From contig NC_089441.1 of NCBI RefSeq assembly GCF_026210795.1, positions 248,001 to 312,000 of the forward strand: DNA of 64,000 bases, given 5' to 3'. The DNA comes from Rhizophagus irregularis (Eukaryota; Glomeromycota; Glomeromycetes; Glomerales; Glomeraceae). The position numbers and the translations under genes are program-made. The notes beneath the pieces were generated by a model. That model had not been told where the DNA came from. It saw only the letters and a list, made by a program, of their open reading frames with translations, and ran no database searches. This document shows positions 3,001 to 63,520 of this stretch, one piece after another. Position 1 is the stretch's first letter; each line of letters starts with the position of its first letter.

Positions 3001-6000
3001 ATTATATTATGATTATAATTATTTGATGATATGTTTATATATTAACTGGCTTACCATCATCTATAATTTAATAATTTAATAGATAGTAAAATAATATGTA
3101 TTCCAAAAGTTTCATATTTGATTATAATTAAATATATAAATATATACAATCAGACCTCTATGTACCGATATCCTATATACCTGTATGCCTGTACCGATAA
3201 ATTTTCTATGTCCCGTTTCACAATTAATAAGAAACCGATATTATATATAGTTTCACGATGTAACAATTGTAACATGTACCGTTGTACCGATACTTTTCTT
3301 TGCCCCTTTATAATTAATACATAGTAAGATGTACTGATACTTTAGGTTACACTAGTATTAATTCGGGCCAACACTATAAATTAAATTTGGCCGAAGTTAA
3401 CATAAAGGTTCCATCCAAATCACATGACATTTTAATATATTGAGTTTGCATAATGCTGGCAAGAATTGGATTTTGGCCTGCATTATGATTCACTGATGAC
3501 GGTATAATCGGTATATGTAACGGATTGTAACGATAATTTGATATACCGATATATTTTCCCCAAACCAACAGTATCGGTACATAGAGGTCCGACTGTATTC
3601 TGTAAATAAATAAAATAAAATAAAAATGTTTTACATGAACAAACATACCTATAAATAAATAAATAAAAAAGTATTGTTAATGATAAATTTGTCAACTAGA
3701 TGGTTTGAAATATAGTTTCGGGCGAAACTATTTTCAAATCCGAAACAAGCTTCGCCGAAACTTCCGAAACAAAATTTGGAAATGTTTTGTAGATCAGTTA
3801 GGTGAAACTAGTTTCGCCCGAAATACTAGTTTGAAAGAAATGATATTAAGTTTAACTTACGTTTTTGTCCTAATAATCAATTAAAATTATAAAGTTATTG
3901 GTTAATTTAATGTCATCCGGATGAATGAACTTATTAAGGATATTGATATAACTTACGTTTTCCTGATAGTTAGATGAAATATAAAAATGCAAAATTAATT
4001 TAATGAATAGATGTTTAGAAAGAAAAGGACAATTAATGTCTAACTTACCAAATATTTTTTTAAGATAGTAGAACGGTCGTTTATGATTAATAGATGCTTT
4101 ATTACCTAAAATAATGAAATAATAATTATGCTTAATTAAGATATCTGACAGAATTCAATATTTTTAAAAAAGAATATCTTCATAAAAATTCAAATTTTGG
4201 AATTTTGGTATCTATAATTGAGTATTGCTAAATATCACCGCTGGTGATTGTCACCTTACCAGAATTAGGGTAGAATTTTGGGCAGAATTAAAAATGGCAT
4301 GAAATTCTGCCCGTTAATATTTGCTAATGCTGGTGCGGTGAGAATCACCAGCGGTGAGATTTAGTAATACCCTCTACAATTTTGGAGCTTTCAATCTTAA
4401 CTTCTAATTAACGAAGTGCTTTGTTTCATTCATTTCATACTCTAATAAAAATATTTATATACCATTAAAATTGGTTGAAAATCCAGAAATATTCTCATGC
4501 TTTTTGGTTTCATACTCTAAAAAAGGGACAAAATTCAATATATACTGTATAATATTTATTAATTCATAGTACGTTTTAAATTACTACAATAGTATACCTG
4601 CTTGAATACTAATTTCATTCAAGTTTGCTACAGGAGGTAGAGGAGATATTTCTATGTCCGCATCATTTGTTTTACATGTTAAACTAAGAGAATATGCTCT
4701 GGTTTTATATCCTAAAAAAAAAATCAGGATTATAACATAAATTTTTGCTTAAATGTAATACACATAAATATTTGTGCTTCATATACGGCACCTGATTCAA
4801 TATTATCATTATTTACGGAATTAGATCGAGATGATAATGAACAAGAAGTAGAATTTGATGAAACATTATCATCAGTCATTTTGAATTGTTCTATCATTTT
4901 TTCGAATATTTCAGGTAAACAAGAAGCGTCAGGCCTTTTTAATGGATCAGAATCCCAACATTGTTTCATAATATTAGCATAAAAATATGGTGTTCCTTTA
5001 ACATCTTCAGGTCTCTGTCCATCAAGAACCGCAAATGCAAGTTCTATATTATGAGGGTAATTTGAAAATGGAGGTTTTTTTGATGTTAATTCCCACATTA
5101 TCATACTTATACTATACACTTCTGATCGCTTTGTATATGGTTCATGTCTTAAAACTTCAGGAGCGATATAAGGTAAAACTCCTTGAATGTTATTTGTATC
5201 TTTTAAGGTAAATAGAAAGGTTATTAGTAATATTTAAAATATCGTAAAAAAAAAATCGTTATTTTTTTAATCATTTACCTATTTCCGAGCCAATTAGTTG
5301 ACAAAGTCCAAAATCACTTACAAAAATTCTATCACCTTCATCTACTAAAATATTTTTACAATGGAAATCTCTATGGAGTAAGTTCATTTGATGAAGAGAA
5401 TTTAATGCTTTTGAAAGTTCAAGAAGAATCTTTGCTCTGTCGATCCAAGTTAATTTTGGAAAAAATTTATAAATATAATTTCGTAAATCTCCATACTCTG
5501 CATGTCTTATTATCATGGCGTATTTATTTCCGTCGAGTGAATGAGGTGATTTCGTTATTCCATAAAATGGGATAACTCTTGGACCACGGCATTCATGGTG
5601 AAATTTAAGCTAATAAATCACAAAAATAAATCACAAAGATTAATTTTTCAAAGAAACGATTATTATTATTTTTTTTTTTTACCTCGTTTAAAATAAGATC
5701 ACTGATATTATCAGATCCATTAATGGATTTTAAAACAACTTTACAAGTTACTTGTTTTGGAATCACAGGAGCCAAAGACATATTTGAAGACAAATTCCAA
5801 ATTCCAAAATAGACTTTTGAACTTCCTCCATTCGCTAAATGTTTTATATTTTCTAAATTTGAACTTGGTATCCATTCAATAAAATCATCACAATATTTTG
5901 AATTTAGTTGAGTCTCTTTAATAAATTCATCCAGTTTTAAATTTCCACTTAACAATTTAAAAAAATTATTTGTTCCACTATTTTGTATTTCATATGTACT

Positions 6001-41448: not shown

Positions 41449-44400
41449 TTACGTGTAAGTAAGGATTATTTTGATTTGTTCTTCATTGATCAATTTTTGT
41501 TCCAATTGAACAATCTTTTCTTCCAATTGAACAATTTTTTTTTCCAACTTGGCCTTTAATTTAATAGTAAGCTTTTGATTTTGTGAGAGACCTTTTACCA
41601 TATCGTGCAACTCAATTTTTTCTTGTTCTATTTGTTCATAATTAATTCGAAATTGATTTAATTGATTTTCTAATTGCTCTTTTTGTTCAATTAAAGCTTG
41701 TTTTTCATTTTGCAAACAAGTAATTAGAGACTGTAAAGTATTTTCTTTTTCCGCAAATTCTCTAATTTGTGCAGTTGAGTTAAATCTCAAATCTTGATAA
41801 TTTTGTTCCAATTGAAAATTTTGTAGTTGTAAATTAACTAATTCCGATTTATATGCTAAAATCGTTTCTTTTAATTCATTTTGAGAAAATTGATAATTAG
41901 TTTCAGCAAACTTCTCTAGCTTAATAAAATTTTCTTCCGTTTTCTTATAATTAATTCGGAATTGAATTTGTTGAAATGTTAATGCTTTAATATCAGCTTT
42001 TAATTGATCTTGCAGATTATTTTTTCCTCGATTTAACTGACTGGTTTGTTTTAACCATTCAGATAAATTGCTAGAAAAGCCTTGCTTTTCATTTTGCAAA
42101 CAAGTAATTAGGGTCCTGAAAGTATTTTCTTTTTCCGCAAATTCTCTAATTTGTGCAGTTGAGTTAAATCTCAAATCTTGATAATTTTGTTCCAATTGAT
42201 TTTGACGTGTTAAAATCATTTCTTCTATTTCATTTTGAGAAACTTGAAAATGACTTATATTTTCATCTTCTATTTTCTTCTTATTAATTTGAGATTGTGT
42301 TAATTGGTGACTTTTATATTGACCTTGTTGAAATTTCAATTCTTGAATATCAACTTCTGATTGAGCCAATTGTTCTTGCGGATTATTTTTTTCTTGATTT
42401 AACTGACTGGTTTGTTTTAACCGTTCAGATAAATTTCTAGAAAAGTCTTGCTTTTTATTTTGTGGGTTTTCTATTTCTGCAAATTAACTGCTAAGTTAGA
42501 TTTCAAATTTTGATTAATTAATTATATAATTAAATAAATTACTTACCCTCTAATAATTTTTAAAATAAAGAATTTAGTTATTTTTAATTATACGCAAATA
42601 TTATATAAATATAATAGAATTAAATAAATAACTTACTAGTAACTAAAGAAAATATTTGAAATAAAAAATTCAGTTAGTTTAAATTATATATAAATATCAT
42701 ATAAATATAATAAATTACTTACGATCTAAAATATTTGAATAATTTTTTAAATAAAGAATTTAGTTAGTTTAAATCATATGTAAATATTATATAAATATAA
42801 TAAAATTACTTACGTTCTAAAATATTTGAATAATTTTTTAAATAAAGAATTTAGTTGGTTTAAATTATATGTAAATATTATATAAATATAATAGAATTAA
42901 ATAAGTAACTTACTCGCTATATTATTAAATAAATAATTTTTTGAATAAAGAATTTAATTAGTTCAAATTATATGCAAATATTATATAAATATAACAGAAT
43001 TAAATAAATAACTTACGAACTATATATTATTAAATAAATAATTTTTTACATAAAGTATTTAGTTAGTTTAAATCATATGTAAATATTATATAAATATAAT
43101 AGAATTAAATAAATAACTTACTCCCTATATTATTAAATAAATAATTTTTTTAAATAAAGAATTTAGTTAGTTTAAATTATATGTAAATATTATATAAATA
43201 TAATAGACTTACTTACGTTCTAAAATATTTGAATAATTTTTAAAAAAAGAATTTAGTTAGTTTAAATTATATGTAAATATTATATAAATATAATAGAATT
43301 AAATAAATAACTTACTCCCTTTATTATTAAATAAATAATTTTTTTAAATAAAGAATTTAGTTAGTTTAAATTATATGCAAATATTATATAAATATAATAG
43401 ATTTACTTACATTCTAAAATATTTGAATAATTTTCTAAATAAAGAATTTAGTTAGTTAAATTATACGTAAATTATTATATAAATATAATAAATTACTTAC
43501 GTTCTAAAATATTTGAATAATTTTTTAAATAAAGAATTTAGTTAGTTTAAATCATATGTAAATATTATATAAATAATATAGAATTAAATAAATAATTTAC
43601 CAACTAAAAGAAATTACAAAATAATTTTTAAAGAATTCAGTTAGTTTAAATTATACATAAATTATTATATAAATATAATAAATTACTTACGTTCTAAAAT
43701 ATTTGAATAATTATTAAATAAAGTATTTAGTTAGTTTAAATCATATGTAAATTATTATATAAATATAATAATAAATTACTTACGTTCTAAAATATTTGAA
43801 TAATCATTAAATAAAGTATTTAGTTAGTTTAAATCATATGTAAATATTATATAAATATAATGGAATCGAATAAATAACTTACCCGCTATATTATTGAATG
43901 CTTTTTTAATTTTTTAAATAAAAAATTTAGTTAGCTTACATTATATGTAAATATGATATAAACATAATAGAATTAAATAAATAATTTACCAACTAAAAGG
44001 AATTACAAAATAATTTTATAAATAAAGTATTTAGTTAGTTTAAATCATATGTAAATATTATATAAACATAATAGAATTAAATAAATAACTTACAAGCTAT
44101 ATTATTAAATAAATAATTTTTTAAAATAAAGAATTTAGTTAGTTTAAATTATACATAAATATTATATAAATATAACAGAATTAAATAAATAACTTACAAG
44201 CTATATTATTAAATAAATAATTTTTTAAATAAAGAATTTAGTTAGTTTAAATCATATGTAAATATTATATAAATATAATATAATTACTTACGTTCTAAAA
44301 TATTTGAATAATTTTTTAAATAAAGAATTTAGTTAGTTTAAATTATATGTAAATATTATATAAATATAATAGAATTAAATAAGTAACTTACTCGCTATAT

Positions 44401-47400
44401 TATTAAATAAATAATTTTTTAAATAAAGAATTTAGTTAGTTTAAATTATATATAAATATTATATAAATATAATAGGATTAAATAAATAACTTACAAACTA
44501 TATTATTGAATAAATTATTTTTAAATGAAGAATTTAGTTAGTTTAAATTATATGTAAATATTATATAAATATAATAGGATTAAATAAATAACTTACAAAC
44601 TATATTATTAAATAAATAATTTTTTTAAATAAAGAAATTAGTTAGTTTAAATTATCATACATAAATATTAGTATATAAATATAACAGAATTAAATAAATA
44701 ACTTACAAGCTATATTATTAAATAAATAATTTTTTAAATAAAGAATTTAGTTAGTTTTAATTATACGCAAATATTATATAAATATAATAGAATTACTTAC
44801 GATCTAAAATATTTGAATAATTTTTTAAATAAAGAATATAGTTAGTTTAAATCATATGTAAATATTATATAAATATAATAGAATTAAATAAATAAATTAC
44901 TCCCTATATTATTAAATAAATAATTTTTTTAAATAAAGAAATTAGTTAGTTTAAATTATATGTAAATATTATATAAATATAATAGATTTACTTACGTTCT
45001 AAAATATTTGAATAATTTTTTAAATAAAGAATTTAGTTAGTTTAAATTATATGTAAATATTATATAAATATAATAGAATTAAATAAATAATTTACCAACT
45101 AAAAAAAATTACAAAATAATTTTTAAATAAAGAATTTAGTTAGTTTAAATTATATGTAAATATTATATAAATATAATAGAGTCAAATAAATAACTTACAC
45201 CCTATATTATTAAATAAACAAGTTTTTTAAATAAAGAATTTAGTTAGTTTAAATTATATGTAAATTATATGTAAATATTACATAAACATAATAGAATTAA
45301 ATAAACAACTTACAAGCTATATTATTAAATAAATAATTTTTTTAAATAAAGAATTTAGTTAGTTTAAATTATATGTAAATATTATATAAATATAATAGAT
45401 TTACTTACGTTCTAAAATATTTGAATAATTTTTTAAATAAAGAATTTCATTAGTTTAAATTATATGTAAACATTATATAAATATAATAGAATTAAATAAA
45501 TAACTTACTCCCTTTATTATAAAATAAATAATTTTTTTAAATAAAGAATTTAGTTAGTTTAAATTATATGTAAATATTATATAAATATAATAGATTTACT
45601 TACGTTCTAAAATATTTGAATAATTTTTTAAATAAAGAATTTAGTTAGTTTAAATTATACGTAAATTATTATATAAATATAATAAATTACTTACGTTCTA
45701 AAATATTTGAATGATTTTTTAAATAAAGAATTTAGTCAGTTTAAATCATATGTAAATATTATATAAATAATATAGAATTAAATAAATAATTTACCAACTA
45801 AAAGAAATTACAAAATAATTTTTTAAATAAAAAATTTAGTTAGTTTAAATTATACATAAATCATTATATAAATATAATAAATTACTTACGTTCTAAAATA
45901 TTTGAATAATTATTAAATAAAGTATTTAGTTAGTTTAAATCATATGTAAATATTATATAAATATAATGGAATTGAATAAATAACTTACCCCCTATATTAT
46001 TGAATGATTTTTTAATTTTTAAATAAAGAATTTAGTTAGTTTAAATTATATGTAAATATTATATAAACATAATAGAATTAAATAAATAAATTACTCCCTA
46101 TATTATTAAATAAATAATTTTTTAAATAAAGAATTTAGTTAGTTTAAATTATACGTAAATTATTATATAAATATAATAAATTACTTACGTTCTAAAATAT
46201 TTGAATAATTATTAAATAAAGTATTTAGTTAGTTTAAATTATACGTAAATCATTATATAAATATAATAAATTACTTACGTTCTAAAATATTTGAATAATT
46301 ATTAAATAAAGTATTTAGTTAGTTTAAATCATATGTAAATATAAATAATATAGAATTAAATAAATAATTTACCAACTAAAAGAAATTACAAAATAATTTT
46401 TTAAATAAAGAATTTAGTTAGTTTAAATCATACGTAAATTATTATATAAATATAATAAATTACTTACGTTCTAAAATATTTGAATAATTATTAAATAAAG
46501 TATTTAGTTTTAAATTATATGTAAATATTATATAAATATAATGGAATTGAATAAATAACTTACCCACTATATTATTGAATGATTTTTTAATTTTTTAAAT
46601 AAAAAATTTAGTTTAGTTTAAATTATATGTAAATATTATATAAACATAATAGAATTAAATAAATAACTTACAAGCTATATTATTAAATAAATAATTTTTT
46701 TAAATAAAGAATTTAGTTAGTTTAAATTATACATAAATATTATATAAATATAACAGAATTAAATAAATAACTTACAAGCTATATTATTAAATAAATAATT
46801 TTTTTAAATAAAGAATTTAGTTACTTTAAATTATATGTAAATATTATATAAACATAATAGAATTAAATAAATAATTTACCAACTGAAAGAAATTACAAAA
46901 TAATTTTTTAAATAAAGAATTTAGTTAGTTTAAATTATATGTAATTATTATATAAATATAAATAGAATTAAATAAATAACTTACTCCCTTTATTATTAAA
47001 TAAATAATTTTTTAAATAAAGAATTTAGTTAGTTTAAATTATATGTAAATATTATATAAATATAATAGATTTACTTACGTTCTAAAATATTTGAATAATT
47101 TTTTAAATAAAGAATTTAGTTAGTTTAAATTATACATAAAATATTATATAAATATAATAAATTACTTACGTTCTAAAATATTTGAAAAATTTTTTAAATA
47201 AAGAATTTAGTTAGTTTAAATCATATGTAAATATTATATAAATAATATAGAATTAAATAAATAATTTACCAACTAAAAGAAATTACAAAATAATTTTTTA
47301 AATAAAAAATTAGTTAGTTTAAATGATACATAAATTATTATATAAATATAATAAATTACTTACGTTCTAAAATATTTGAATAATTATTAAATAAAGTATT

Positions 47401-50400
47401 CAGTTAGTTTAAATCATATGTAAATAATATATAAATATAATGGAATTGAATAAATAACTTACCCGCTATATTATTGAATGATTTTTTATTTTTTCAAATA
47501 AAAAATTTAGTTAGTTTACATTATATGTAAATATTATATAAACATAATAGAATTAAATAAATAATTTACCAACTAAAAGAAATTACAAAATAATTTTTTA
47601 AATAAAGAATTTAGTTAGTTTACATTATATGTAAATATTATATAAACATAATAGAATTAAATAAATAATTTACCAACTAAAAGAAATTACAAAATAATTT
47701 TTTAAATAAAGAATTTAATTAGTTTAAATAATATGTAAATATTATATAAATATAATAGATTTACTTACATTCTAAAATATTTGAAATAAAGAATTTAGTT
47801 AGTTTAAATTATATGTAAATATTATATAAATATAATGGAATTGAATAAATAACTTACCCCCTATATTATTGAATGATTTTTTAATTTTTAAATAAAGAAT
47901 TTAGTTAGTTTAAATTATATGTAAATATTATATAAATATAATAAAATTAAATAAATAACTTACTCCCTATATTATTAAATAAATAATTTTTTTAAATAAA
48001 GAATTTAGTTAGTTTAAATTATATGTAAATATTATATAAATATAATAGATTTACTTACGTTCTAAAATATTTGAATAATTTTTTAAATAAAGAATTTAGT
48101 TAGTTTAAATTATATGTAAATGTTATATAAATATAATAGAATTAAATAAATAACTTACTCCCTATATTATTAAATAAATAATTTTTTTAAATAAAGAATT
48201 TAGTTAGTTTAAATTATATGTAAATATTATATAAATATAATAGATTTACTTACGTTCTAAAATATTAGAATAATTTTCTAAATAAAGAATTTGGTTAGTT
48301 TAAATTATATGTAAATATTATATAAAAATAATAGAATTAAATAAATAATTTACCAACTAAAAGAAATTACAAAATAATTTTTTTAAATAAAGAATTTAGT
48401 TAGTTTAAATTATATGTAAATATTATATAAATATAATAGATTTACTTACATTCTAAAATATTTGAATAATTTTTTAAATAAAGAATTTAGTTAGTTTAAA
48501 TCATATGTAAATATTATATAAATATAATAGATTTACTTACGTTCTAAAATATTTGAATAGTTTTTTAAATAAAGAATTTAGTTAGTTTAAATCATATGTA
48601 AATATAAATAATATAGAATTAAATAAATAATTTACCAACTAAAAGAAATTGCAAAATAATTTTTTAAATAAAAAATTTAGTTAGTTTAAATTATACATAA
48701 ATTATTATATAAATATAATAAATTACTTACGTTCTAAAATATTTGAATAATTTTTTAAATAAAGAATTTAGTTAGTTTAAATTATACGTAAATTATTATA
48801 TGAATATAATAAATTACTTACGTTCTAAAATATTTGAATAATTTTTTAAATAAAGAATTTAGTTAGTTTAAATCATATGTAAATATTATATAAATAATAT
48901 AGAATTAAATAAATAATTTACCAACTTAAAGAAATTACAAAATAATTTTTTAAATAAAGAATTTAGTTAGTTTAAATTATACGTAAATTTTTATATGAAT
49001 ATAATAAATTACTTACGTTCTAAAATATTTGAATAATTTTTTAAATAAAGAATTTAGTTAGTTTAAATCATACATAAATTATTATATAAATATAATAAAT
49101 TACTTACGTTCTAAAATATTTGAATAATTATTAAATAAAGTATTTAGTTTTAAATTATATGTAAATATTATATAAATATAATGGAATTGAATAAATAACT
49201 TACCCACTATATTATTGAATGATTTTTTAATTTTTTAAATAAAAAATTTAGTTTAGTTTAAATTATATGTAAATGTTATATAAATAATAGAATTAAATAA
49301 ATAAATTACTCCCTATATTATTAAATAAATAATTTTTTTAAATAAAGAATTTAGTTAGTTTAAATTATATGTAAATATTATATAAATATAATAGATTTAC
49401 TTACATTCTAAAATATTTGAATAATTTTCTAAATAAAGAATTTAGTTAGTTTAAATTATACGTAAATTATTATATAAATATAATAAATTACTTACGTTCT
49501 AAAATATTTGAATAATTTTTTAAATAAAGAATTTAGTTAGTTTAAATCATACATAAATTATTATATAAATATAATAAATTACTTACGTTCTAAAATATTT
49601 GAATAATTTTTTAAATAAAGAATTTAGTTAGTTTAAATTATACGTAAATTATTATATGAATATAATAAATTACTTACGTTCTAAAATATTTGAATAATTT
49701 TTTAAATAAAGAATTTAGTTAGTTTAAATCATATGTAAATATTATATAAATAATATAGAATTAAATAAATAATTTACCAACTTAAAGAAATTACAAAATA
49801 ATTTTTTAAATAAAGAATTTAGTTAGTTTAAATTATACGTAAATTTTTATATAAATATAATAAATTACTTACGTTCTAAAATATTTGAATAATTTTTTAA
49901 ATAAAGAATTTAGTTAGTTTAAATCATATGTAAATATTATATAAATAATATAGAATTAAATAAACAATTTACCAACTAAAAGAAATTACAAAATAATTTT
50001 TTAAATAAAGAATTTAGTTAGTTTAAATTATACGTAAATTATTATATGAATATAATAAATTACTTACGTTCTAAAATATTTGAATAATTTTTTAAATAAA
50101 GAATTTAGTTAGTTTAAATCATATGTAAATATTATATAAATAATATAGAATTAAATAAATAATTTACCAACTTAAAGAAATTACAAAATAATTTTTTAAA
50201 TAAAGAATTTAGTTAGTTTAAATTATACGTAAATTTTTATATGAATATAATAAATTACTTACGTTCTAAAATATTTGAATAATTTTTTAAATAAAGAATT
50301 TAGTTAGTTTAAATCATATGTAAATATTATATAAATAATATAGAATTAAATAAACAATTTACCAACTAAAAGAAATTACAAAATAATTTTTTAAATAAAG

Positions 50401-50907
50401 AATTTAGTTAGTTTAAATTATACGTAAATTATTATATAAATATAATAAATTACTTACTTTCTAAAATATTTGAATAATTATTAAATAAAGTATTTAGTTA
50501 GATTAAATCATATGTAAATATTATATAAACATAATAGAATTAAATAAATAACTTACTCCCTATATTATTAAATAAATAATTTTTTTAAATAAAGAATTTA
50601 GTTAGTTTAAATTATATGTAAATATTATATAAATATAACAGAATTAAATAAATAACTTACAAGCTATATTATTGAATAAATAATTTTTTAAATAAAGAAT
50701 TTAGTTAGTTTAAATTATATGTAAATATTATATAAATATAATAGGATTAAATAAATATCTTACAAGCTATATTATCAAATAAATAATTTTTTAAATCAAG
50801 AATTTAGTTAGTTTAAATTATATGTAAATGTTATATAAATATAATAGGATTAAGTAAATAACTAAGTTCATTCTATATACTTTGCCTTTTTTATAAATTT
50901 GAGCCAT
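41449..50907 (-). CDS. Coiled-coil protein gene with giant micro-exon/intron array (copy A)
   Basis: The coding exon 42476-41449 gives about 341 residues of Gln/Glu/Lys/Leu heptad-rich coiled coil. It includes an internal duplication: the block LEQNYQDLRFNSTAQIREFA..NEKQ appears twice. Upstream, the reading frame is set by a TTTGCAG acceptor at 42477, which requires a phase-1 entry. A candidate first exon (MAQIYKKGK) lies at 50907-50881, separated by about 85 tandem intron units. Exon 1 here is 27 nt, one short of the 28 nt in copy B, so with this start the frame would miss the coiled-coil frame unless another donor or start is used. The C-terminus is cut short: after INEEQIKIILT the sequence joins the 3' flank, by deletion relative to copy B. 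Function unknown; probably oligomerising or scaffold-like. Confidence 0.55.
42540..50870 (-). repeat. Tandem array of ~85 intron-like units separated by 3-nt exons
   Basis: Each ~97-bp unit, read on the minus strand, has a donor (GTAAGT or GTAAAT), AT-rich sequence with TTTATATAA, a CTAACTAAATTC branch-point-like motif, TTTATTTAAA, then an acceptor TTTTAG, ATATAG or TTTTAG-type, and exactly 3 nt before the next donor (one unit, near 42640, has 6). I count about 85. The triplets are mainly AAC (about 38), TTG (about 16), GGA and CTT, with a few AAT, CGG, GGG, TGG, CGA, TTT, ATC and others. The triplet correlates with the intron 3' type: AAC with AAATATTTTAG, TTG with TTTCTTTTAG plus GTAAAT, the rest with AATAATATAG. 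The array contains no frames of its own. Confidence 0.85.
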
Positions 50908-58462: not shown

Positions 58463-61400
58463 CTAATCTGTTGCTAAATTTTTTAATTCTTTTTTTTCTT
58501 GTTTTATTTCTGATTTCAATTTATTCAAATTCTTTCTTAATGAATCTATATCTTCCGCCATCATGCTAGAATTTAATTGAGTTCTGGTCCCTTCCTGAGA
58601 ATTGGTAGCAAATTTAAAAATTTTGTATTTATCAAGATTAAAAAAATCCAACTTGAGAATATTTTCAATTTCAAGACTAACTTCCAACTCTTTATTTTCT
58701 TGAACAATATTCCTTAAGGAATAAAATTTTTTGTTCAGCTGTAATAATCCATCATTATATTTTGTGAGAATATTTTGAAATTCTTTAGTATATTTATCAG
58801 CAAACTTTATTTTAGAGATTTTATCTTCTACACTAACCATATCTTTAACAAATCCAAAAGCAATTCTTTCTTTATTAGTGAAGATTTCTAGACGATTGCA
58901 ACAATTTTGCAATTTTTTAATAGCTTCTTCTTGTGAAATTAGGAAATCACCCTTGGTTTTCAGAAAATTATTAACTTGATTGAGAACCTGTTTTTTTCTA
59001 TTGGCATTATAAGAAGCTGAAGTGCTCTCTAATTCTTGCTTGAGTTCATTCATCTCTTTTTGCTTAGCTTCTTTTTCTTTGTGAATCTCCTTAGTATTTT
59101 CTCCACAAGTTAATTTATTTATTAATTCTTTTTCAATTTCACTCAATTCTTTTCTTTTATCTATTAGCTTTTAATATGCTCATAATCAAGGTTAATCAAC
59201 CTTTGTTCTAATTCATTTATTTTATTTTCTTTAATCTGTAAAGTTTGGGTTAATTGTATTTTGATTCGTTCTTCATTGACCAATTTTTGTTCAAATTGAG
59301 CAATTTCTTTTTCCAACTTGGCCTTTAATTTAGTAGTAAGCTTTTGATCTTGTGAGAGACCTATTACCACATTGTGTAACCTAATCTTTTCTTGTTTTAT
59401 TTGTTCATAATTAGCTTGGAATTGATTTAATTGATTTTCTAATTGCTCTTTTTGCTCAATTAAATTTTCTTGCTGAGATTTTAATTCTTGAATATTAGCT
59501 CTGTTTAAACTAACATTTCCTGCAAATCAATTTTTTCTTGCTCTAACTGCTGATTAGTTTGAATTTGAATTTGCTGATTGGTTAGCTTATTTTGTTTCAA
59601 ATGTTCAGTTAAATTGCCAGCCAAAGCTTGCTTTTCATTTTGCAAACAAGTAATTAGAGTCTGTAAAGTATTTTCTTTTTCGGCAAATTCTCTAATTTGT
59701 GCAGTTAAGTTAAATCTCAAATCTTGATAATTTTGTTCCAATTGAAAATTTTGTAGTTTTAAATTAACTAATTCCAATTTAATATTTTGATATGCTGAAA
59801 TCATTTCTTTTAATTCATTTTGAGAAACTTGATAATAAGTTTCAGCAATCTTCTCTAGCTTAAGATTTTCATCATCTATTTTCTTATAATTAATTTGGGA
59901 TTGTATTAATTGACTTTTATATTGATCTTGTTGAAATTTTAATTCTTGAATATCAGATGCTGATTGAGCCAATTGATCTTGCAGATTATTTTTTTCTTGA
60001 TTTAACTGACTGATTTGTTTTAACTGTTCAGAAAAATTGCTAGTAAAGTCTTGTTTTTCATTTTGCGGGTAAGAAAGTAAAGAATTTGATTCTTTTGCAA
60101 ATTACATGCTAAGTTAGATTTCAGATTTTGATTGATTTATACAAATTAATTATATAATTAAATAAATAACTTACGCCCTATATTATTAAAAAAAAATTTT
60201 TAAATAAAGAATTTAGTTAGTTTAAATTATATGTAAATATATATAAATATAATGGAATTAAAAAATTATTATTTTTTTATAGTTTAAATGAGTATAAAAT
60301 GAATTATTGCTGTCTTCCACTTAACGTAACTCTTTTGAGAAATATTTATCAATGATTAATGATGATGCTTTTCATAGTTACCTTCAATGCTCATTTTGCT
60401 ATTTGTTGATGCATTTATTGATGTATTTGATGTTGGTGATAAATTTATTGTCAAAGCGGGAGCTTGTCCACTTGATGTTGGAGGATTCCCATTGCTTGTT
60501 TTCACTAATGGTTCCAATGTTTTAATTTTAAATTGAACCCCCCTGAAAGATTGAATTGCCTTGCTTGCTTCACGTGCATTCCTGAAAATTGCCAGAATAA
60601 TTGGCTTTTTATTTGGTGAATTATTTGAAGGATTAATATGCTTAATGGTTACATCCAATAATACAATATCCATAAGATCATCAGATTCAGCAAAATCGTA
60701 AAGTTCAAGTATGTGATTTGGTTTTTGTGGTTCATTGGCTAAAAAATAAGAGCATTATTTTTAATACGGTACTTGCATAGAATTGTCAAATAGAAGTGAA
60801 CCGTTTTTATTATTCTTTTTATTGCTACTATTATTATTGTTACCCGATGTTGATGTGGACGCTCGATTGTCAACTAAAAAAAATATTTGAACAGTTTTTT
60901 AAATAAAGAATTTAGTTAGTTTAATTATATGCAAATATTATATAAATATAATAGAATTAAATAAATAACTTACGAACTATATTATTAAATAAATAATTTT
61001 TAAATAAAGAATAAATAACTTACGCTCTATATTATTGAATAAAAATAATTTTTTAAATAAAGAATTTAGTTAGTATAAATTATATGTAAAATATTATATA
61101 AATATAATAAATTACTTACGTCCTAAAATATTTGAATAATTATTAAATAAAGTATTTAGTTAGTTTAAATCATATGTAAATATTATATAAATGTAATAGA
61201 ATTAAATAAATAACTTACTTGCTATAAAATATTTGAATTTAGTTAGTTTAAATTATATGTAAATATTATATAAATATAATAGAATTACTTACAATCTAGA
61301 ATATTTGAATAATTTTTTAAATAAAGAATTTAGTTAGGTTAAATTATATAAATATAATAGAATTAAATAAATAACTTATAACTTACCAACTAATGAAAAT

Positions 61401-61913
61401 ATTTGAATAATTTTTTAAATAAAGGATTTAGTTATTTTAAATTATATAATTATATGTAAATATTATATAAATATAATTAATTACTTACGATCTAGAATAT
61501 TTGAATAAAGAATTTAGTTAGTTTAAATTATATGCAAATATTATATAAATATAATAGAATTAAATAAATAACTATTATTAAATAAATAATTTTTTAAATA
61601 TAGAATTTACTTAGTTTATGTAAATATTGTATATAATAGAATTAAATAAATAACTTACGTCCTATATTATTAAATAAATAATTTTTTAATTAAGAATTTA
61701 GTTAGTTTAAATTATATGCAAATATTATATAAATATAGTAAATAACTTACTTTCTATATTATCAAATAAATAAGAATTTACATAAATATTATATAATAGA
61801 ATAAAGAATTTAGTTAGTTTAATTATATGTAAATATTAAATAAATATAATAGAATTAAGTAAATATCTAAATTCATTCTATATACTTTTGCCTTCTTCAT
61901 TACTTTGAGCCAT
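58463..61913 (-). CDS. RRM-like plus coiled-coil protein gene (copy B), with frame breaks
   Basis: Exon 1 (61913-61886, MAQSNEEGK) is followed by about ten 3-nt exons, then 60873-60844, an RRM-like exon 60738-60382, a 3-nt exon 60177-60175, and the coiled-coil exon from 60091 down to 58463. All joins before the coiled coil are phase 1 and stop-free. The RRM-like exon has beta strands HILELYDF, VTIKHINP and IILAIFRNA and a helix ASKAIQSFRG, followed by a Ser/Asn/Thr/Pro-rich linker, suggesting RNA binding. The coiled-coil part has two frame breaks, near 59510 and at an A-run near 59170, before a further charged helical region ending KELKNLATD. Either a decaying gene or homopolymer assembly errors. 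Function is unknown; an RNA-binding oligomer is a guess. Confidence 0.6.
60175..61885 (-). repeat. Short intron array with 3-nt exons (copy B)
   Basis: Same unit as the large array. Triplet exons in transcript order: 61753-61751 AAA, 61661-61659 GAC, 61501-61499 ATC, 61389-61387 TTG, 61295-61293 ATT, 61221-61219 CAA, 61122-61120 GAC, 61026-61024 AGC, 60976-60974 TTC, then the 30-nt and RRM exons, and 60177-60175 GGC. One degenerate unit near 61565 lacks a donor. Units are more divergent and of less even length than in copy A. In phase 1 none of the joins makes a stop. The intron directly before the 30-nt exon is itself an array unit, tying the array to genuine coding exons. Confidence 0.7.
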
Positions 61914-62530: not shown

Positions 62531-63520
62531 TTCCTTTATTAATATTAACTATTCTCTCTTCTTTTCGTTCCACTTTGTCACTTCTGCTTCCATTTTGTTC
62601 TTCCACCTCCATTTCATTCCACTTCATCACTTCTACCTCCATTTCGTTCCACTTCACCACTTCGTCACTATTTGTAAGTAGTTCTTTCCACATTTTAACG
62701 GCTTTAAAACTTTGGCACCAGTATCCTTATAAATAGTAAGTTCATTTTTGGTCTTTTGGGATTGGGACTTAATTTTCTTTAACTAACTATATATCTTTCT
62801 TTTTTTGGTCGGACTTTCACTTTTTTTTTGGGCTTTATGGTTTTTTTTCTTTCCTATTATGCCTATTGTTTCTTTTTTTACCATTTCGTCTCCTATCATT
62901 CTTTTACCATCTCCATTTCGTTCTTTCATCTCTATTTCATCCTATATCATTTTTTCATTACAATTTTGTTCTGTATCATCATTTCATTCCTTTCATCACC
63001 ATTTCGTCTTTATCATTTTTTTCTATCCCTATTTCGTTCTATATCACGTTTTCATCATCATTTCAACCCATACCATTCCTTTAATCACCTTTTTGTCTCC
63101 TATTTTTCTATCATCATTTCATTTTATATTGCTTTTCATCATCATTTCATCCCATATATACTGTTCTTTTCATTGCTATTTCATCTGAATCATCTCCTAT
63201 TATTCTTTTCCATTACCATTTCGGTTTATATCACTTCATCATTATAATTTCGTCCTCATACCATTCCTTTCATCACCATTTCGTTCTATATCACTTTATA
63301 ATTTTCTTTCATCACCATCATGTCCTATATCATTTTTTCTCTATCATCACTTCATTCTATATTGCTTTTTCTTCATCATTTCATCCTATACTTTTCTTTT
63401 CATTGTTATTTCGTCTCCTATTGTTCTTTTTCCATTATCATTTCATCCTATATTGTTTCTTATTACTATTTTTGTTCTTTCTTATTCCTTATACTCTTTT
63501 TGCCATTATTATTTATTTGA
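62531..63520. repeat. Pyrimidine-rich degenerate tandem repeat
   Basis: Repeats of a 25-45 nt theme such as ATCACCATTTCGTTCTATATC and TTCATCATCATTTCATCC fill nearly 1 kb with strong C+T bias on the plus strand. All three plus-strand frames are open for stretches and give Phe/Ser/His/Ile-rich strings, a composition artefact. It is a minisatellite, possibly of the kind seen at recombination-prone sites. Confidence 0.65.

Follow-up and report, generated by a model that had tools for sequence, protein, structure and literature searches.

The micro-exon genes (MEGs) of Schistosoma mansoni have 10-20 exons, the majority of them 15 bp long, which are separated by introns of 0.1-5 kb and encode secreted proteins, according to the part of the source available to us (PMC10526429). 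In aphids, the megacycle gene contains more than 100 micro-exons and encodes approximately 2000 residues, and the bicycle genes are putative gall effectors, as stated in the accessible portion of that report (PMC9168663). Extracts of further papers describe constitutive 1-nt exons in Arabidopsis APC11 (PMC4674806) and Fusarium CYP621A (PMC12940212), as well as a single, alternatively spliced 3-bp micro-exon in Drosophila homothorax (PMC7392893). Single exons of 1 or 3 nt are thus already known as rarities.

Here, we describe gene arrays in which part of many protein kinases in Rhizophagus irregularis appears to be spelled one codon per exon, with up to approximately 120 such exons in a row. 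Like the S. mansoni MEGs, as far as the available text describes them, these genes form a family with many very short exons whose lengths are mostly multiples of three. Unlike the MEGs, they carry tandem exons of exactly 3 nt (up to 120), have introns of approximately 90 nt, and encode kinases. The long introns of the MEGs are absent, as 1236 of the 1299 introns in 30 parsed genes measure 70-120 nt, and while MEG products are secreted with a signal peptide, the predicted N-termini (MAQSN...) do not resemble one, judged by eye only. The criterion for a micro-exon gene, many coding exons of 30 nt or less, is met by the family, with coding status inferred from stop avoidance and not from RNA.

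The bicycle genes offer a likeness, not a homology: they too have many small exons in one phase, which is phase 1 for the array exons studied here. Their exons average about 20 codons by the figures quoted above, however, they are not kinases, and no tandem intron-plus-codon repeat is described for them in the accessible portion of the paper (PMC9168663). APC11 and CYP621A share with the present family a constitutive 1-nt exon that is needed for restoring the frame, but each concerns one gene or orthologous set in the extracts available, whereas here a 1-nt exon terminates an array, with a signature present 89 times in one genome. With homothorax, a spliced 3-nt exon is held in common, and the extract describes no array.

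Recursive splicing sites consist of an adjoining acceptor and donor, and introners are repeated, similar introns. The present arrays differ from both in that each acceptor is separated from the following donor by 3 nt that stay in the coding sequence, and in that the units lie in tandem within one gene family. A literature search of titles and the beginnings of abstracts, with most subscription papers and non-PMC bioRxiv preprints outside its scope, returned no description of one-codon-exon arrays. We know of no kind of gene that builds a protein segment one codon per exon.

The micro-exon array of the window

The window is the whole stretch of DNA that was analysed (64,000 nucleotides, C13:248001-312000). 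Its features are as follows; in motifs, a slash marks a splice or codon boundary.

41449..42476, minus strand: coiled-coil-like exon after the array (open frame and paralogous matches; coiled coil judged by eye)
42477..42546, minus strand: last intron of the window gene, GTAAGT donor and TTTGCAG acceptor (read from the sequence)
42547..50766, minus strand: micro-exon array of the window gene, 85 micro-exons with introns of approximately 90 nt (regular expression, parse and stop test)
50881..50907, minus strand: exon 1 of the window gene, ATG at 50907 (aligned start regions of paralogs)
58463..60101, minus strand: coiled-coil-like open frames of the second paralog (open frames)
60170..61913, minus strand: second, shorter paralog, ATG at 61913, exon 1 G/GCAAAAG, about ten units (sequence and repeat table)

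A first-pass annotation had described the minus-strand units as complete introns separated by exactly 3 nt, and these units are real. A regular expression found 85 AG-NNN-GT junctions, about one every 97 bases, one of which is a spurious overlap at 50456, and the parse gave 85 tandem micro-exons, of which 84 measure 3 nt and one 6 nt (TTACTA, 42642-42637). The units are tandem repeats with high similarity. The absence of phase-1 stops, which had also been noticed, was borne out: T is the last base of 15 triplets, and 36 of 84 start with AA, AG, or GA, yet 0 stops were found where shuffling predicts 6.4. The exon downstream of the array begins AA/ATA GAA and needs phase 1, again as annotated. 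The boundary of the last intron was set by eye and frame, as the automatic parse placed it elsewhere.

At the other end of the gene, the annotated donor does not fit. With 50881 as the last exon base (a GT donor), exon 1 ends in phase 0 and not in phase 1; with 50886, the donor position of the family, it ends in phase 1, but the donor is GC here. The aligned start regions of the paralogs read ATGGCTCAA, with the donor G/GTAAAAG in most. The GC donor of the window gene (GCAAAG) is also unlike those within the arrays, which are otherwise GCAAGT and make up 10 of 1299 introns. The window copy, which reaches phase 1 only with a GC donor, may be in decay, and our claim is strongest for the family.

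A search for the kinase exon in both window copies gave no match. Neither the window gene nor its neighbour at 58.4-61.9 kb shows an exon 2, and in both the array runs into a coiled-coil-like exon. The coiled-coil-like frames (41449..42476 and 58466-59170) had no Pfam match; the former is related to the post-kinase coiled coil of other members. The window array is therefore an atypical family member without kinase exons, and not its best example. In the second paralog, which was not run through the splice-model parse, the array is interrupted near 60880-60350 by an insert containing an open frame (60356-60754), which has splice-like sites on its flanks and no Pfam match. Beside this paralog, at 62600-63460, lies a degenerate minisatellite with periods of approximately 30-32 bases. 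Elsewhere in the window, positions 1437-1802 hold two copies of a 188-base repeat containing CTTAC motifs, which may be a further duplicated unit with an intron on the minus strand.

A dispersed family of protein kinases

The array is not confined to a single locus. In the genome (G000; 146.7 Mb, 32 contigs), a 211-base query gave 662 matches in many clusters, and further copies of the array unit, of the coiled-coil exon, and of the sequence preceding exon 1 are present at other sites, frequently in combination. The window array belongs to a dispersed family of protein kinases. A first set of 16 stretches was fetched, holding 15 further genes. These share exon 1 (typically ATGGCTCAAAGTAAC..G/GTAAAAG, phase 1), the array, and then a kinase exon; the start region was not found in L010 and lacks an ATG in L005. 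Exon 2 is usually 24 nt long (TTTCAAAAATTGAGAAAGATAAAG, phase 1). Downstream of the kinase exon come the remaining kinase sequence and, in stretches of sufficient length, coiled-coil-like sequence. The downstream open reading frame of L001 matches kinase profiles (PF00069, 1.5e-29; PF07714, 2.6e-27) from profile position 57-59 on, while its N-lobe exon alone (72 residues) had no Pfam match. Six kinases from further down the list of kinase exons (L030-L035) all have micro-exon junctions upstream.

Genes were parsed by dynamic programming, in which donors, branch-like motifs, and acceptors are scored and no exon length is preferred, apart from a small penalty on each exon base that generally makes short exons more likely. 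Ten dinucleotide-shuffled copies of the window array yielded about 11 introns each with this parser, and 3-nt exons made up 14 of their 98 inner exons. Seven genes with missing or broken ends were not parsed (L017, L018, L020, L021, L027, L028, and the second window paralog), and L025, whose parse extended into inserted DNA, was left out of the stop tests. In the 30-gene set, the short versions of L030, L033, L034, and L035 were replaced by longer ones (K30, K33, K34, and K35). For exons 1 and 2, boundaries were set from motifs, since the automatic parse scored them wrongly in several genes. For 19 of the 29 kinase genes, this parse gives an open frame that carries over from the first micro-exon to the kinase exon; the 10 others, which are not both in frame and open, reflect decay, parse errors, or both.

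Among the 1269 inner exons of the 30 parsed genes, 1207 measure 3 nt, 30 measure 1 nt, and 32 have other lengths. Intron lengths, by contrast, fall into all three residue classes (385/511/403 of 1299): the introns have gained and lost bases, and the exons hardly have. This anatomy and its exact 3-nt spacing are observed directly. Across the whole genome, a strict two-junction pattern matched 764 times with 3-nt spacers (reversed control, 0) and not once with 4-nt spacers (reversed control, 1). Splice signals are strong: 962 of the 1299 introns begin with GTAAGT, 1169 end in TAG, and 1169 have a branch-like motif. The 10 GC-AG introns within arrays mostly keep the 3-nt spacing, with examples in L008 (two TTG/GCAAGT), L010 (AAG/GCAAGT), K34, K35, and others. 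In L013, GC-richer repeat-like inserts near 3270-3400 and 3495-3620 enlarge array introns, with the adjoining micro-exons untouched.

The number of inner exons per parsed gene ranges from 14 (L029) to 122 (L024). The latter, which together with L038 (G000:C22:2757300-2770100) is a single kinase gene, has the longest parsed array, at approximately 12 kb: 120 exons of 3 nt, one of 6 nt, and one of 1 nt, nearly all of them TTG, AAC, or GGA. At the shorter end, L014 has 25 exons of 3 nt and a 1-nt exon. The triplets have a G+C content of 37%, versus approximately 11% in the surrounding DNA, and residue themes are gene-specific, with L024 rich in Leu, Glu, and Gln, and L011 containing an Asp-rich stretch.

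The first triplets of the arrays are conserved. In 23 of the 26 genes with the array start in view, they include ATT/GGT, which encodes W in phase 1, and AAT/GGT takes its place in one more; the exceptions are L015 and the window gene. Eleven of the 26 carry exactly CTC/TTG/AAA/ATT/GGT, or ALENW in phase 1, while K33 and K30, whose kinase exons match the kinase-exon query at 70 and 60%, have CTC/TTG/AAG/ATT/GGT (ALEDW) and CTC/TTG/CCG/ATT/GGT (ALADW), respectively. The conservation of these 5' micro-exons is directly seen, and their predicted translation is a peptide conserved across paralogs.

At the 3' end, the kinase exon starts A/TTT GGT and hence needs phase 2. A 1-nt exon (A in 28 genes, G in one) immediately precedes it in all 29 parsed kinase genes, and in 22 of them this exon directly follows a TTG exon. 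A TTG exon followed by a 1-nt A exon was found at 89 places on 27 contigs (control, 0), at least 78 of which lie just upstream, on the same strand, of a kinase exon among the best 150 of 3142 candidates. As a 1-nt exon turns phase 1 into phase 2, the array could not be joined to the kinase in frame without it; that it is needed for the frame can be read from the sequence, with no cDNA at hand.

The conserved motif NWTSGN occurs contiguously at 1475 places in the genome (control, 2), and the five copies that were inspected all fall within single open exons encoding kinase-like N-termini (for example, FKNWTSGN..VDEFIQ..EWIEY..GGFGT). In array genes, the motif is split, with ENW followed by the array and then by FGTSGS..VDQFI..WIPY..GGFGT, indicating that the array expands a point between W and TSG. 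The family with the contiguous motif, kinase-like at its N-terminus, is very large, and some copies stand in close tandem, approximately 500 bases apart (C2:394390-399829, C2:1559720-1563917).

Frame and stop codons between neighbouring triplets

In phase 1, a codon combines the final base of a triplet with the first two bases of the triplet that follows. The first 16 genes contained 2 phase-1 stops versus 31.4 expected from within-gene shuffles, and 1 versus 31.6 once GC donors were allowed. A second batch of 14 genes contained none in 383 pairs versus 16.2 expected, the lowest of 5000 shuffles giving 6, and both batches together contained 1 in 1028 pairs versus 47.7. The caution in the first-pass annotation that tandem units are not independent is answered by the large number of separate genes and by a count in which each distinct pair is scored once per gene, which leaves 1 stop in 715 pairs versus 42.2 expected. 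Triplets starting with AA, AG, or GA follow a T-ending triplet in 1 of 234 cases and other triplets in 265 of 794 (Fisher, 8e-34), with shares of 0.24, 0.31, and 0.45 after A-, C-, and G-ending triplets, respectively.

With the four longer loci included (30 genes), neighbours in transcription order formed 1 stop in 1159 pairs versus 48.6 expected. Reversing the order of the triplets gave 65 stops versus 48.4 expected, and pairing triplets at lags 2-6 gave 41, 57, 49, 44, and 39 versus 46.3, 44.2, 42.3, 40.3, and 38.9. For four further genes, the stop test was fixed beforehand and gave 1 in 106 pairs versus 4.2 expected (P 0.03); lags 2 and 3 were also low in this set (1 versus 4.0 and 1 versus 3.9), so that it is too small to separate the lags. 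Two in-frame phase-1 stops, in L016 and L048, are apparently genuine; the units that contain them look normal.

The other two phases were considered and rejected. In phase 2, the arrays have 172 stops in 1028 pairs versus 137.9 expected. In phase 0, no stop triplets occur in the 30 genes and two TGA triplets occur in L049, but phase 1 is the only one that suits exon 1, exon 2, and the kinase exon. An intronless, joined copy, sought as proof of splicing, did not turn up. A degenerate pattern for it had no exact match in the genome; it gave 1 match with one mismatch and 39 with two (26+14 in all; control 11+8).

The fit of frame and the selection against stops between joined neighbours are shown by these data. 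Since stops are rare only between in-order neighbours in phase 1, selection must have seen the triplets joined in order and translated. Such a constraint, confined to neighbours in transcription order, is predicted by constitutive in-order inclusion, and not by removal of the array as one intron or by frequent skipping.

Interpretation and rival explanations

We consider it highly probable (roughly 0.9), in the absence of transcript or peptide evidence, that the arrays are constitutive one-codon exons that are spliced in order and have been amplified as intron-plus-codon modules. Weighing against this reading are the 10 kinase genes not in frame and open by the automatic parse, the two stops in L016 and L048, the modest result in the four further genes, the lack of an intronless copy, and the GC donor and missing kinase exons of the window gene. 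The first-pass annotation had left the choice between such micro-exons and a minisatellite of intron-like units lying within one large intron, removed whole or by recursive splicing, so that the triplets never reach the mRNA. The units are indeed highly similar tandem repeats, and no transcript is available to exclude this possibility, yet it gives no reason why phase-1 stops should be avoided between neighbours in transcription order alone, why the ALENW micro-exons should be conserved, or why a 1-nt exon should be present in 29 of 29 kinase genes. It would also join exon 2 (phase 1) straight to the kinase exon (phase 2), which is out of frame. The 30-gene stop tests, the conserved 5' peptide, and the frame-setting 1-nt exon thus favour one-codon micro-exons, and we give the single large intron almost no credence. 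A neutral minisatellite, without coding constraint on its units, was rejected on the count of 1 stop in 1159 neighbouring pairs versus 48.6 expected.

Two further explanations accept that the micro-exons have been coding. They might be included in varying subsets, giving many isoforms per gene, as any 3-nt exon can be skipped without loss of frame and alternatively spliced micro-exons are known from the schistosome MEGs (PMC10526429) and fly hth (PMC7392893), as far as the accessible parts of these sources go. Common skipping should have cleared stops between a triplet and the second or third after it, however, and in the 30 genes these were found at shuffle level (41 versus 46.3 and 57 versus 44.2). 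In the small four-gene set the counts at lags 2 and 3 were low. Largely optional inclusion remains very unlikely in our view. Slightly less remote, but still improbable, is that the micro-exons were once coding and shaped by selection, and that many arrays, including that of the window, are now decaying pseudogenes. The 10 kinase genes that are not in frame and open by the automatic parse would fit such decay, as would the in-frame stops in L016 and L048 and the two window copies, which lack kinase exons and of which the second is interrupted. Against this, 19 of 29 genes keep an open frame all the way from the first micro-exon to the kinase exon, and 1 stop in 1159 pairs in 30 genes is too few for general decay. 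For the window copy alone, decay deserves more weight.

If the arrays are constitutive one-codon exons, each would form the 5' coding part of its gene, with nearly each codon's worth on its own 3-nt exon. The pre-mRNA would be spliced intron by intron, the introns of approximately 90 nt carrying strong GTAAGT, branch-like, and TAG signals; short introns with strong signals suit recognition across the intron. As splice sites 3 nt apart cannot both be occupied, we infer that removal should be sequential. The micro-exons, joined in genomic order in phase 1, would yield a variable segment, 14 to 122 inner exons long in the parsed genes, that is preceded by a short conserved N-terminus (MAQSNDxVSKIEKDK, then ALENW) and followed by the kinase domain, and the final 1-nt exon would shift phase 1 to the phase 2 required by the kinase exon. 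That splicing proceeds today as drawn remains, like this order, an inference.

The duplication mechanism is likewise inferred. Tandem duplication of an intron with its 3-nt exon would add one residue, so that arrays could grow and shrink by the module, and with exons of 3 nt, adding or losing one module would never break the frame. This would explain both the range of 14 to 122 exons and the gene-specific residue themes. We think it likely, with somewhat less assurance than for the exons themselves, that the modules constitute an expandable "codon satellite", by which probably dozens or more kinases lengthen and rewrite a segment residue by residue without risk to the frame. The spliceosome would perform up to approximately 120 consecutive in-order joinings of single codons per transcript, closed by a frame-fixing 1-nt exon, and paralogs would come to differ (Leu/Glu/Gln-rich, Asp-rich, Arg-rich, or Trp-rich) through unequal exchange in seemingly non-coding repeat DNA.

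A segment spelled one codon per exon in tens of genes, with up to approximately 120 exons in a row, would challenge the minimum size of an exon as well as ideas on how touching splice sites are handled. The arrays would offer a natural setting in which to test the order in which introns are removed, and show a route by which coding sequence can grow like a satellite and yet stay in frame. As annotation would probably miss or truncate genes of this type, the gene models of many kinases may be wrong in this important symbiotic fungus.
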